Shown in pieces: positions 43,671-50,252 of a DNA stretch of 64,000 nt. The position numbers and the translations under genes are program-made. The stretch is from the NCBI RefSeq assembly GCF_000377705.1, contig NZ_KB898623.1, positions 464,684-528,683 of the forward strand. Direction: 5' to 3'. Every line of letters begins with the position of its first letter. The stretch's first letter is position 1. This DNA is from Salsuginibacillus kocurii DSM 18087. Lineage in GTDB: Bacteria; Bacillota; Bacilli; Bacillales; Marinococcaceae. The notes beneath the pieces were generated by a model, which worked only from the letters and a program-made list of their open reading frames with translations, was not told the DNA's origin and did not search any database.

Positions 43671-44072
43671 TTAGTCGCTTATAGTTTTCACATAAATTGT
43701 GCGTCTACGTGGCCCATCAAACTCACAGAAATAAATGCCCTGCCACGTTCCTAAAAGAAGCTTGCCATTTTCTACAATAATCGTTTGCGATGGTCCAACT
43801 GTACTGGTTTTCATATGAGCTGCTGTGTTTCCTTCTCCATGCAGATCCTTAGAATGTGTCCACGGATAAATTTCATCAAAGCGTCGAATCATATCTGTTT
43901 TCACATCAGGGTCTGCATTTTCATTAACAGTCAATCCAGCTGTCGTATGCATGGATTGAACTGTGACTACGCCTGTTTTCATTCCTGCTTTATGAACAAT
44001 CTTATTCACATCATTTGTGATGTCAACCATCTCATCTCGTTGTTTGGTTTCTACATGAATTTTTTCTAACAC
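43671..44072 (-). CDS. YjbQ/UPF0047-family protein
   Basis: The 133-aa protein matches the YjbQ family, whose members can show weak thiamine-phosphate synthase activity but have no settled function. Conserved parts are [16 protein letters not shown], the His-rich [16 protein letters not shown], and the C-terminal [15 protein letters not shown]. These residues form a trimeric metal-binding site in known structures. GGAGG precedes the start. The B. subtilis homologue would be YugU. It stands alone between two repeat copies. Confidence 0.85.
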
Positions 44073-44812: not shown

Positions 44813-46087
44813 ATGCAAACGGAAGTCATTGTAGTTGGTGGCGGCCCAGCCGGTCTTATGGCGGCTATATCAGCTGCTCAACACGGAGCAAACGTAACCT
44901 TATTAGATAAAGGTAAAAAGCTTGGACGAAAGCTAGCTATTTCAGGAGGTGGCCGTTGTAACGTTACAAATCGGATGGCCTTAGATGAATTAATTAAACA
45001 CATTCCCGGGAACGGAAAATTTATGCACAGCCCCTTTTCTATCTTCAATAATGAAGATATTATTTCCTTCTTTGAAGATATGGGGATTCCCTTGAAAGAA
45101 GAAGATATGGGCCGCATGTTCCCAGTAAATGATAAAGCTGTAACCGTTGTAAGAACTCTCTTGGATAAACTTGAAGAGCTTGGCGTAACCATGCTTACCA
45201 AAACTGAAGTTCACGATTTATTGATGGATGAAGACCGTATTAAAGGTGTTCAATTAGCAGATGGTACCCAACGGGAAGCAGATGCTGTCATACTAGCTAC
45301 AGGTGGCAAATCTGTACCTCATACAGGGAGCACGGGAGATGGTTATCCTTGGGCCGTTAAAGCAGGACATACAATTACAGATCTTTACCCAACTGAAGTA
45401 CCAATCACTTCCCCGGACGACTTTATTCAGTCCAAAGAATTGCAGGGCTTGTCCCTCCAAGATGTTGCATTATCTGTAACTAACCATAAAGGGAAAACCG
45501 TAATCACTCATCGTGGCGATATGATATTTACCCATTTTGGGATTTCCGGGCCGATTGTGTTACGGTGCAGCCAATATGTTGTTAAAGAACGGAAGAAAAA
45601 ACCTGACAATCTCGTTACTCTTTTGCTTTCTCTCTATCCTGAAGCAAAGGAAGAGTCATTATTTCAACAACTAGTCACTCTCAAAAAAGACCAAGGGCAA
45701 AAGTCTATTAAAAATGTGTTAAAAGCTTGGGCGCCTGAGCGTTTGTTGCTGCTTCTTTTAAAAAAAAGCAGTATTCCTTCTGATACCCGCACGGAGCAGG
45801 TAGCAAACGAAAGCCTGCGCCAACTAGCTCACTTCTTTACCCGTTTTCCTATTGCGGCCGATGGTACGCTTTCCATTGAAGAAGCGTTCGTTACTGGCGG
45901 AGGTGTTTCTATTAAAGAAGTACATCCCAAAACCCTCGGTTCAAAAAAGAAAGACGGTCTTTACTTTTGCGGAGAACTACTAGATATTCACGCTTATACT
46001 GGTGGCTACAATATTACTTGTGCTTTTTCTACTGGCTATGCTTCAGGAAAAGCCGCGGCCGAAACTCTTCAACCATTTATTCAATAA
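44813..46087 (+). CDS. ytfP: YtfP, HI0933-family FAD-dependent oxidoreductase
   Basis: The N-terminus has the FAD-binding Rossmann motif TEVIVVGGGPAGLMAAISAA, followed by KLGRKLAISGGGRCNVTN, a signature of the HI0933/BaiN family. VILATGGKSVPHTGSTGDGY and the C-terminal FVTGGGVSIKEV and CGELLDIHAYTGGYNI also match. The ATG at 44813 lies 10 bases after AAAGGAG and gives 424 aa (420 in B. subtilis YtfP); the ORF is open from 44678, but the extra 45 codons are not family-like. The substrate is unknown. The hairpin after the stop is part of a DnaA-box cluster. Confidence 0.9.
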   Translation: MQTEVIVVGGGPAGLMAAISAAQHGANVTLLDKGKKLGRKLAISGGGRCNVTNRMALDELIKHIPGNGKFMHSPFSIFNNEDIISFFEDMGIPLKEEDMGRMFPVNDKAVTVVRTLLDKLEELGVTMLTKTEVHDLLMDEDRIKGVQLADGTQREADAVILATGGKSVPHTGSTGDGYPWAVKAGHTITDLYPTEVPITSPDDFIQSKELQGLSLQDVALSVTNHKGKTVITHRGDMIFTHFGISGPIVLRCSQYVVKERKKKPDNLVTLLLSLYPEAKEESLFQQLVTLKKDQGQKSIKNVLKAWAPERLLLLLLKKSSIPSDTRTEQVANESLRQLAHFFTRFPIAADGTLSIEEAFVTGGGVSIKEVHPKTLGSKKKDGLYFCGELLDIHAYTGGYNITCAFSTGYASGKAAAETLQPFIQ

Positions 46088-46089
46088 CC

Positions 46090-46234
46090 ATTCACAACCT
46101 GTGGATAAACACCTTTGCTTATACACAGGTTGTGAATTAATAAAACCTCTGTTATAAAGCGCTCTTTGCCACCCTGTGCATAACCTCTCTTTTTATCCAC
46201 TTACTTATCCACTGTTATTCAGAAGTTATTAACA
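46090..46234. promoter_or_regulatory. DnaA-box cluster in the ytfP intergenic region
   Basis: Seven sites match TTATNCACA in 8 or 9 positions. Perfect sites are 46100-46108 (-), 46119-46127 (+) and 46175-46183 (-). One-mismatch sites, all +, are 46193-46201, 46205-46213, 46215-46223 and 46226-46234. The first two boxes sit in the arms of a 19-bp inverted repeat (46090-46108 and 46119-46137, one mismatch) directly after the ytfP stop, which may also act as a terminator. DnaA-box clusters away from oriC are known in B. subtilis, where they titrate DnaA and tune initiation; that role here is inference. Confidence 0.78.
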
Positions 46235-46263
46235 ACTCAAACAAAAACAATTATCCTTAAGAA

Positions 46264-47622
46264 TCAAATTAATAACCAGCCTATTATGGTTCCTACCCCG
46301 CCATACAAGAGAGCAAAAGGCATATTTTTCAGCGTAATTAGGTATGGATTTTGTTCGGTTGCCTGTGAGGTCATCGTCACCGTAATTCCATACGTCCCTA
46401 CCGAAGCTGTGGATAACGAACTAGTTATAAAAACAATACCAATGCTCATAGGATTCATTGTTTCATAGAGCGGAACTACGACTTCTTGCAATATTCCAAT
46501 GGTGGCAATTGGATGCATCCCAATCATAGCCATGGCTAAAAAGGTAAATTGAATAAACAGCAGCACCACCAAAGGCTGATTTGCAGCTAACATAAACGGT
46601 TCTTGAATCATGCCTAAAAAAGGTGTCTCATTCAAGCTGCCTGAAAAGAATCCGAGCGCTACAAATAACACGACGAAGTTTTGCATGTTGTTTAAACGGA
46701 ACCACCACGTTTTTGCACCTATGGTCCAAAAGGAGCGTATCCGCTTTATTAATATGGCCCAGACCACCGCAAATGGAAAAATAACCAAGGTGACTGTGAT
46801 AATAAATGACAGCCCGGTAAGATTTCCGATCCCCACCACTAAGAATAAAAATGCAGTCAAGGCGACCGAAAGCTGAAAAATACGTTTAGTCATTTCTAGT
46901 GGATTAATTGTTTTTGTCAGCGCTGCGCCATTCGGCTCGTAGGCCACCCGGCGAAAGCGCTGGCCAATAATTCCGTCTAAAATGAGCACTATCCCAGAGA
47001 TAAGCAACAGCCACGGCAGGTATTCTAAAAAGCTTACTCCGGTGGTATCCACTGTAATAGCCACCATAATTTCCATCGGGCTCCAAGCTAAAACCAAAGC
47101 AAAACCCCGTAATGTTGTACGAGAAATGAAATCATCCCGTACTGCCTTTGAAAAATGAGCTAAATTTTGTTTGAGCACATCCTGGATAAGTGGAATTGCA
47201 GATAGATTAATGAAAGCTACTAATAAATACGTAGTGCCTAAACTACGTGTATACAACCTACCTAAATCTTTAACCCGTGCTTGCAGGAGTTGATTAATGC
47301 GGCGGTCAAACCGCCCTGCTCTAACGACACTCTGCATCCAAGGAAGCATGGCTAAAAAAGCTAAGAGTGAAAGATTATTCGTCATCAGTTGAGGTAGTTC
47401 TAGCACGCTGACATTTCCCCACAAGAAAAAGATAACCCCCGCACTTACAAACAGAGTGCCCAACAACCGAAACAACTTGGTGGCTCCGACAAAAGAAATC
47501 AGAAGCGCTGGGATTGCTAGCACTCCTGCCATATAGGTTAATACTTCCGAGCCAAGAAACATATCAATTAGATAAAGGCCGAGCACTGTTAAGTATAAGT
47601 AACCAATTGAAAATTTGTTCAT
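46264..47622 (-). CDS. Uncharacterised polytopic membrane protein
   Basis: I do not recognise a named family. The 452-aa protein has about 11 or 12 hydrophobic helices and a cytoplasmic loop with RAGRFDRRINQLLQARVKDL. A repeated symmetry is suggested by two Ser/Pro-bearing segments, FALVLAWSPMEIMVAIT and MAMIGMHPIATIGILQ, each followed by long helices, as in ion-transporter (IT) superfamily carriers. A third conserved-looking stretch is TSSLSTASVGTYGITVTM. It is transcribed towards the DnaA-box cluster and lies downstream of leuS with a terminator between them. A transport role is an inference from topology. Confidence 0.65.
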   Translation of the reverse strand: MNKFSIGYLYLTVLGLYLIDMFLGSEVLTYMAGVLAIPALLISFVGATKLFRLLGTLFVSAGVIFFLWGNVSVLELPQLMTNNLSLLAFLAMLPWMQSVVRAGRFDRRINQLLQARVKDLGRLYTRSLGTTYLLVAFINLSAIPLIQDVLKQNLAHFSKAVRDDFISRTTLRGFALVLAWSPMEIMVAITVDTTGVSFLEYLPWLLLISGIVLILDGIIGQRFRRVAYEPNGAALTKTINPLEMTKRIFQLSVALTAFLFLVVGIGNLTGLSFIITVTLVIFPFAVVWAILIKRIRSFWTIGAKTWWFRLNNMQNFVVLFVALGFFSGSLNETPFLGMIQEPFMLAANQPLVVLLFIQFTFLAMAMIGMHPIATIGILQEVVVPLYETMNPMSIGIVFITSSLSTASVGTYGITVTMTSQATEQNPYLITLKNMPFALLYGGVGTIIGWLLI

Positions 47623-47736: not shown

Positions 47737-50169
47737 TTAATTCGCTACGATGTTCACAAGCTTGCCTGGTACAGCAATTACTTTTCGAATGGTTTTCCCT
47801 TCGATCTGTTCTTTAATCTTCTCATCTTCAAATGCTGCTTCTTCAAGTTCTTCTTTGCTTGCTTCAGCTGATACTACAAGCTTGCTGCGCACTTTTCCGT
47901 TAATTTGCACGACGACTTCCACTTCGTCAGTTACAAGATAAGCTTCATCATACGTCGGCCATGCTTCGTAACCGATTGTTTCGTTATGACCAAGTACGGA
48001 CCAAAGCTCTTCAGTGAGATGAGGAGCGACGGGTGCAAGCATTTTAACAAAGCCTTCTATTTGCTCTTTTGATAGTGTGTCTTCTTTATAAGCATCGTTT
48101 ACAAATACCATCAGTTGACTGATGCCTGTATTAAAACGAAGATTGGTAAAGTGTTCCGTTACTTTCTGGACAGTTTCATGATAGGTACGTGTCATATCCT
48201 CACTAGCTTCATTTTCCGCTTGAATAGTAGAACGTAATGCCTTCCCGTCCTCGGCTACGACTAAGCGCCATACCCGGTCCAAAAAGCGGCGGGCTCCATC
48301 CAGTCCATTGGTTGACCAAGCAATGGAAGCATCCAAAGGTCCCATAAACATTTCATACAAACGAAGCGTATCTGCTCCGTGCGTTTCTAAAATGTCATCT
48401 GGATTGACAACGTTCCCTTTAGATTTACTCATCTTCTCATTGTTTTCCCCAAGAATCATGCCCTGGTTGTAAAGGCGTTGGAACGGCTCTTTCGTAGGGA
48501 CTACGCCGATGTCATACAACACCTTGTGCCAAAAACGTGCATAAAGCAGGTGAAGCACGGCATGCTCTGCACCACCGATATAAATGTCCACCGGAAGCCA
48601 GTGAGCAAGCTTTTCCGGCGCAGCCAGTTCTTCAGTATTGGTTGGGTCAATAAAGCGTAAGTAATACCAGCAGCTTCCTGCCCACTGCGGCATCGTATTG
48701 GTCTCGCGCCGGCCTTTCATGCCTGTTTCCGGGTCAGTTACTTCAACCCAGTCTGTTGCATTAGCAAGCGGCGATTCACCCGTACCTGACGGTTTGAATT
48801 CATCCATATTTGGCAGTTCAAGTGGAAGCTCTTCTTCAGGCACCGTCGACATGGACCCATCTTCCCAATGAATCACTGGGATGGGCTCGCCCCAATAACG
48901 CTGGCGGCTAAACAACCAATCTCTTAAGCGATACGTGACTTCTTTATTACCGATATTTTGTTCTTCCAGCCATTGAATCATTGTTTCAATGGCTTCATCA
49001 GTATGAAGTCCATTTAAAAAATCAGAGTTTACGTGCGGTCCGTCTTCCACGTAGGCTTCTTTTTCAATGTCGCCACCTTCGACAACTTCGCGGATCGGCA
49101 GGCCAAATTTTTGTGCGAATTCGTAGTCTCTTTCATCATGCCCAGGCACTGCCATGATCGCTCCGCTTCCGTAGCTTGCAAGCACGTAGTCTGCAATCCA
49201 GATCGGCATTTTTTCGCCATTAGCCGGGTTAATCGCGTGAGCTCCCGTAAATACGCCTGTTTTTTCTTTGGCAAGCTCTGTCCGCTCTAGTTCACTTTTT
49301 GAACCAACCTCATCCTGATAAGCTGCCACTGCTTCTTTTTGTTCTTCACTTACAATTTTATTTACAAGTTCGTGCTCTGGCGCAAATACACAGTAAGTAG
49401 CTCCAAAAAGTGTATCCGGACGAGTCGTAAACGCTGTAAATGTTTCTTCGCTTCCATCAATAGCGAACGTGATTGTAGCTCCTTCAGAGCGACCAATCCA
49501 ATTACGTTGCATGTCTTTAATACTCTCCGGCCAATCCAGTTCTTCTAAATCCTCAAGCAAACGATCAGCATACTCTGTAATTTTCAACATCCACTGCCGC
49601 ATCGGGCGTCGTTCTACCGGATGGCCCCCGCGTTCACTGACCCCATCTACGACCTCTTCGTTGGCAAGTACAGTGCCAAGCGCCGGGCACCAATTTACCG
49701 GCACTTCATCAATATAAGCAAGCCCTTGCTTATATAATTGAATAAAAATCCACTGTGTCCATTTATAATACGCAGGATCGGTCGTATCGATCTCCCGGTC
49801 CCAATCGTAAGAAAAGCCAAGGGATTTGATCTGACGGCGGAAGTTATCAATATTCGCTTGGGTAAACTCGCGAGGATGCTTATTTGTATCGAGCGCGTAC
49901 TGTTCAGCCGGAAGACCAAACGCATCCCACCCCATCGGATGCAAAACATGATAACCTTGCATGCGCTTCATTCGCGATAAAATATCTGTTGCTGTATAAC
50001 CTTCAGGGTGCCCGACATGCAGTCCGGAGCCCGAAGGATATGGAAACATATCTAGAGCATAATATTTCGGTTTATGTTCATTGCCTTTCGGGTCTTCTGT
50101 TTTGAAAATACGTTCTTTTTCCCAAAAGGATTGCCATTTTTGTTCAATCTCCTGATGAGGGTATGCCAT
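47737..50169 (-). CDS. leuS: LeuS, leucyl-tRNA synthetase
   Basis: LeuS charges tRNA-Leu. It is a class Ia synthetase: the HIGH-type motif is [16 protein letters not shown] near residue 45, the editing CP1 domain lies at about 225-415 ([20 protein letters not shown] quoted within it), and the second signature is [16 protein letters not shown] near 575. The anticodon-binding domain and C-terminal domain complete 810 aa (804 in B. subtilis). The ATG at 50169 has AAGGAGG 9 bases upstream; the ORF extends to 50241 but that part belongs to the leader. A T-box riboswitch and a strong promoter precede the gene. Confidence 0.97.
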
Positions 50170-50252
50170 GAAATTGTCCTCCTTTTTCTTTGCCACAGTG
50201 AGTCTTAAACTGCTTTTCATGATAACGCAGGGTGTTGTCATTTACATTCAGT

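Follow-up and report, generated by a model that had tools for sequence, protein, structure and literature searches.

A conserved array of DnaA boxes downstream of ytfP in Salsuginibacillus kocurii and its probable role in replication control

The box array on the 3' side of ytfP

The window (the whole 64,000-nt stretch of DNA analyzed here) comes from the S. kocurii DSM 18087 genome, a 3.83-Mb draft in 23 contigs. It encodes an HI0933-family FAD flavoprotein, whose gene we take to be ytfP, followed by two convergent genes (Table 1); a YjbQ gene lies upstream of ytfP at 43671-44072. The first convergent gene encodes a 452-aa membrane-protein-like product with no Pfam or NCBIfam match, and the second is leuS. 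Between 46100 and 46234, on the 3' side of ytfP, eight 9-mers lie within one mismatch of the DnaA box TTATNCACA (starts 46100 to 46226), and three of these are perfect: 46100 (-), 46119 (+), and 46175 (-). The original prediction had counted seven boxes, which is one too few, and three perfect ones, which is right. It had also described the last four boxes as co-oriented, and 46193, 46205, 46215, and 46226 are indeed all on the + strand. A ninth box, again perfect, lies at 46408 (-), inside the neighboring gene downstream of the array.

Table 1. Features of the ytfP-leuS interval in S. kocurii (positions in the window).
Feature	Position	Strand	Remark
ytfP, HI0933-family FAD flavoprotein	44813..46087	+	PF03486, E 1.6e-93; array begins directly past the stop codon
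Degenerate DnaA box CCATTCACA, two mismatches	46088..46096	+	12 bp ahead of the following - box; several relatives have a + box there
Inverted repeat made of two convergent box pairs	46090..46137	.	22-nt arms, 4 nt apart
Perfect DnaA box TTATCCACA	46100..46108	-	-75 relative to module A
Perfect DnaA box TTATACACA	46119..46127	+	within the second arm of the inverted repeat
DnaA box TAATTCACA, 1 mismatch	46131..46139	-	12 bp past the preceding + box
Perfect DnaA box TTATGCACA	46175..46183	-	module A position 0
DnaA box TTATCCACT, 1 mismatch	46193..46201	+	module A position +18
DnaA box TTATCCACT, 1 mismatch	46205..46213	+	module A position +30
DnaA box TTATTCAGA, 1 mismatch	46215..46223	+	at +40; misses the +49 place of several relatives
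DnaA box TTATTAACA, 1 mismatch	46226..46234	+	at +51; misses the +61 place of several relatives
452-aa hydrophobic membrane-protein-like product, convergent	46264..47622	-	between array and leuS
leuS, convergent	47737..50241	-	C-terminus used as query for leuS in the regions of relatives

Across the genome, 3806 9-mers (2002 + 1804) match the box with at most one mismatch, or only about one per kb, so eight within 150 bp is far beyond chance. The expectation is 0.14 boxes per 150 bp and the Poisson P(>=8) is about 3e-12, a value to be taken as a guide only, palindromic boxes being non-independent; it agrees with the earlier claim that random DNA would rarely give such a cluster. The window as a whole holds no excess of these matches (74 against a shuffled mean of 67.7). 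Perfect boxes number 138 genome-wide; the sole site with more than three per 150 bp is near tsaD/gcp, which has four, and the array is the second-densest site by this measure. Judged by perfect boxes, therefore, the genome does not hold a multitude of equally dense windows, a scan that the original prediction had proposed. The density of boxes with at most one mismatch was ranked in the window and in seven further stretches of the same genome, the best of which reached six.

The seven fetched stretches revealed other box clusters of this genome at dnaA-dnaN, ywlC-spoIIR, rlmH (which we take to be the same gene as yydA), and tsaD/gcp. At the last of these, four perfect boxes share one direction within 92 bp. 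The dnaA-dnaN locus sits on another contig (C4), and the array is thus a dense cluster outside oriC. Three of the clusters, at tsaD/gcp, ywlC-spoIIR, and rlmH/yydA, are near genes of B. subtilis DnaA-box clusters (DBCs), being counterparts of regions reported as bound by DnaA in that species (PMC4447404).

Two other identities were considered and set aside. The single Rfam hit (E 0.53) scored 18.4 bits, below the gathering score of 83. A distant blastn search against plasmids for iteron-like sequences returned 34 records of short matches, with a best E of 0.7 among the 20 listed.

Conservation of the array and its spacing

We read the 420 bp 3' of the ytfP stop codon in 168 regions, comprising 28 from the family, 23 further best hits from the order, 37 chosen mostly to give each family group of the order one member, and 80 named loci. 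Clusters of 5-9 boxes per 150 bp were found in 27 regions, and the remaining 141 had at most two. Because three cluster loci were counted twice (L011=L043, L014=L044, L136=L046), the 27 regions correspond to 24 distinct carrier genomes; more duplicates occur among the negatives. The carriers span six family groups plus Halalkalibacter. In 51 control regions upstream of ytfP, no more than two boxes were found. Within the family, 9 of the 28 genomes with ytfP have the cluster and 19 do not. Named carriers amount to five of 80 (Bacillus piscicola, Salibacterium aidingense, two Halalkalibacter species, and Alkalihalobacterium chitinilyticum), and the other 75 loci, including those of Neobacillus, Priestia, Paenibacillus, and B. 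spizizenii, are without one. The one same-genus genome in the set (L002, genome G001) lacks the cluster and has a single box in the 400 bp after ytfP; there, leuS lies convergently about 0.55 kb past ytfP. The conservation that the original prediction had proposed to look for is hence found across families and is missing from this single congener. Mapped onto a tree of 53 YtfP rows, presence of the cluster takes 9 changes to explain, compared with about 16.7 for shuffled labels. It is thus clustered on the tree and is probably old and often lost, and this patchy presence, with its 9 gains or losses, means that the cluster is dispensable.

In 17 of the 27 cluster regions, leuS was found within 1.5 kb, running convergently toward the boxes; in the other 10 it was not found within that distance. 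Given this convergent intergenic placement, no promoter is expected at the array. The membrane-protein-like gene is found downstream of ytfP in two of the 168 regions, here and in L025, which has no cluster; among the 27 cluster regions it adjoins the array in this genome only. In nine carriers with both loci on one contig, the ytfP array lies 0.59-1.21 Mb from dnaA (contigs were treated as circular where that gave the shorter path). One genome has no ytfP match at E <= 1e-100 (L190, genome G002); it keeps the array between leuS and a SpoVB-like gene, at 1361-1669 of the fetched locus.

The boxes recur in two arrangements, written here with the strand of each box in brackets and the spacing between. 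Module A is [-]18[+]12[+], a 24-letter pattern that some genomes extend by 19[+]12[+]; module B is [+]12[-], followed in some genomes by about 23[-], and precedes module A in many ytfP carriers. Of the 24 carriers, 17 match module A with no more than 3 mismatches in its 24 letters, and the other seven have 5-9. Setting the - box at 46175 to 0, many carriers share a register of + at -88, - at -76, - near -53, - at 0, + at 18, and + at 30, and some add + boxes at 49 and 61. Counting box pairs, (++,12) recurs in 21 genomes, (-+,18) in 17, (+-,12) in 14, and (--,23) in 6; in 2000 shuffles of box positions, which ignore kinship, no single pair was found in more than 11 genomes. In four genomes of one family group (L187, L188, L189, and L246), module A matches a second time on the 3' side of leuS, some 6-15 kb away from the ytfP array, which points to a split or duplicated element.

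Boxes are kept far better than the DNA between them. In a MAFFT alignment of the 24 genomes made without the pattern, letters in boxes defined in one genome and compared in other genera were 0.731 identical, against 0.379 for spacers, a comparison in which the aligner may favor the pairing of similar boxes. Across the aligned genomes, 2182 of 4095 boxes (0.53) remain boxes of the same orientation. When 17 genomes were compared in register, identity was 0.885 for the core boxes, 0.511 for the +49 box, 0.347 for the +61 box, and 0.335 for spacers, with rotated columns reaching at most 0.763; this comparison is biased toward the core boxes because the register is the best module A match and the set is restricted to genomes with at most three mismatches (17 of 24). 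The +61 box is no better kept than the spacers (0.347 vs 0.335). The array is thus conserved in relatives, boxes over spacers, though patchily. In S. kocurii itself, module A retains the shared spacing, with 2 of its 24 letters mismatched, and the copy as a whole is among the more degenerate ones, with weakened boxes that fall off the +49 and +61 places.

Module A at ywlC and likeness to known elements

The same module occurs at an unrelated locus. Of 199 genomes from the order, 99 contain module A (at most three mismatches), and the other 100 have no match at all; the reversed pattern has only four matches in total. In 78 of the 97 fetched module A loci, ywlC lies no more than about 1.5 kb away (69 of them also have spoIIR); of the rest, five have leuS or ytfP-leuS, one has tsaD, one has dnaA-dnaN, and 12 are near none of nine marker genes (L160, L163, L184, L185, L186, L255, L274, L280, L297, L303, L311, and L312). 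Neighbors at these last loci include DUF1516/PxpB in L184, a transport protein in L186, and a sigma factor in L160. Although module B was not used in finding them, the ywlC loci contain [+]12[-] in 63 of 78 cases and [-]21[-] in 59. When module B was tested in 87 of the 97 loci (ten were left out), 57 had at most 6 mismatches in 32 letters, 12 had 8-9, and 18 had at least 10, and the best reversed control had 10. Module A is not universal, since B. spizizenii has no match at up to three mismatches; its ywlC region reads [+]12[-]21[-]12[-].

No genome among the 199 has module A at both ywlC and ytfP/leuS, with 78 and 12 having it singly (one-sided Fisher p 0.002, from loci mapped by hand, ignoring kinship and hinging on the three-mismatch cut). 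In S. kocurii, the ywlC region has boxes, yet the module A motif matches at ytfP alone.

The closest known counterparts are the B. subtilis DBCs, above all ywlC, which like the ytfP array are dense groups of boxes outside oriC. In B. subtilis, DnaA binds the ywlC region, among others, in vitro (PMC4447404), and across the order this locus carries module A and, in many cases, module B too, as at ytfP. The two sites differ in place, the ytfP array lying 3' of ytfP and mostly facing leuS; in order, with B then A at ytfP and A then B at ywlC; and in B spacing (12/23 at ytfP, 12/21/12 at ywlC). Distance from the origin also sets the ytfP arrays, at 0.59-1.21 Mb from dnaA, apart from the clusters of the functional B. 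subtilis study, which its title (in the references of PMC4447404) calls oriC-proximal. Neither ytfP nor leuS is mentioned in the main text of PMC4447404, as distinct from its 269-region supplement, and no description of a DnaA-box cluster at ytfP was found in the literature searched, which bears out the earlier remark that none was known there as far as that main text goes.

Likeness to elements of E. coli is more partial. DARS1 and DARS2 are each a small group of boxes of which one faces the rest, and we presume, from gene neighborhood, that their core triples in E. coli K-12 are both [+]14[-]12[-], in contrast to the [+]12[-]23[-] of ytfP-array relatives. The DARS core geometry was rejected for the array on this difference, and the original idea of a reloading site, in the DARS sense, is not supported. 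E. coli datA is, like the array, an intergenic DnaA-box cluster downstream of genes and away from oriC, and it lowers the amount of active DnaA (PMC5742627). However, datA needs IHF, which B. subtilis lacks according to a 2026 review (PMC13220808).

A proposed site for cooperative DnaA binding and its alternatives

A number of related bacteria keep the array, spaced in nearly the same way, which makes a role in the control of DNA replication probable. We consider it likely to be a chromosomal DBC of the B. subtilis kind, one that would bind DnaA cooperatively and restrain initiation; deletion of six clusters outside oriC in B. subtilis is reported to cause early initiation (PMC5295017, PMC13220808). 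The original prediction of a chromosomal DnaA-box cluster away from oriC is supported in that the array is non-random and has a spacing common to relatives. DnaA would bind the boxes cooperatively in a set geometry, with the tandem boxes of module A, at 3-bp gaps, seeding a short DnaA filament; such a gap is within the spacing of 2-3 bp that E. coli DnaA favors (PMC11317965). The convergent pair of module B, plus a further - box in some genomes, would form a second unit. Passage of the fork at this mid-arm site would double the array dosage and withdraw DnaA, which would delay or steady the next initiation at oriC. The occupancy by DnaA, its cooperativity, and the effect on initiation are inferred.

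Other explanations were weighed against this one. S. kocurii may retain only a decaying remnant of an element that functions in its relatives, as could be read from the weakened boxes, the loss of the outer register, the membrane-protein gene that adjoins this one array out of 27, and the cluster-free same-genus genome L002. We think this unlikely, however, as eight boxes remain, three of them perfect, making this the second-densest site by perfect boxes, and the spacing of module A is intact with 2 mismatches of 24. A different proposal is that the array resembles datA or DARS in function, its geometry holding DnaA in contacts that alter its nucleotide state, through ATP hydrolysis or the release of ADP, rather than merely its free amount. 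A spacing shared over deep divergence exceeds what a sink needs, and module B has the DARS topology, in which a box points against the one or more that follow it, forming a head-to-head pair (PMC5742627). Against this stand the core spacing of DARS1 and DARS2 described above and the review's statement that B. subtilis has neither IHF nor datA nor DARS (PMC13220808), and we regard a datA- or DARS-like role as rather improbable.

Control or termination of transcription, with DnaA as a roadblock or a hairpin terminating ytfP and its convergent neighbor, would suit an array placed directly past a stop codon. The inverted repeat described originally is real, its arms measuring 22 nt (46090-46111 and 46116-46137) with 91% complementarity, and the surrounding 201-nt region folds with a z of -4.95. 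Strong hairpins also occur in L027, L143, and L145, and a looser scan gave one weak site per strand, with 6-pair stems inside the inverted repeat. However, the standard scan of 45900-46400 for a GC-rich stem and T-run found no terminator-like site, the genes are convergent so that a promoter is not expected, and folding is inconsistent among the carriers: in the first 75 nt of all 24, this genome included, z is <= -3 in seven and > -1 in nine, and the place of the stem varies. A terminator as the main feature was rejected on these grounds, and with it the original idea that a terminator and DnaA boxes share the same bases; the hairpin seems to be a side effect of boxes arranged as a palindrome, and a transcriptional role is very unlikely. 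A secondary or former replication origin would account for dense DnaA boxes in a somewhat AT-rich segment (64% against 58% in the window), but this is scarcely credible for an array that does not lie beside dnaA and dnaN, which have boxes of their own on contig C4. The sign of the GC skew is constant through the window, and a simple scan found neither a DnaA-trio-like run nor an unwinding element. Equally remote is an array that owes its form to chance or relatedness alone and has no function. Common descent, which shuffled box positions ignore, and an aligner that may favor the pairing of similar boxes would work in its favor; boxes are nonetheless kept where spacers are kept much less, and the same modules recur at the unrelated ywlC locus.

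Beyond the reading of the array as a DBC, we put forward, as a speculative and rather doubtful proposal, that many Bacilli have a structured A-B element for DnaA, at ywlC in some genomes and at ytfP-leuS in others, whose address is mobile, whose geometry is kept, and which would set either the nucleotide state of DnaA or its assembly. The 2026 review describes it as unknown whether regulators of the DnaA ATP/ADP balance exist in B. subtilis (PMC13220808). If the proposal is true, the A-B geometry, a head-to-head pair beside a tandem filament, would impose specific DnaA-DnaA contacts, and the element would be a Gram-positive counterpart of datA and DARS, for which the review names none in B. 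subtilis (PMC13220808). The box grammar common to two unrelated loci, in different genomes, allows a direct test of a sink against an assembled complex: if these sites are plain sinks, their spacing should be indifferent, and if they are assembled complexes, small changes to the spacers should abolish the effect.
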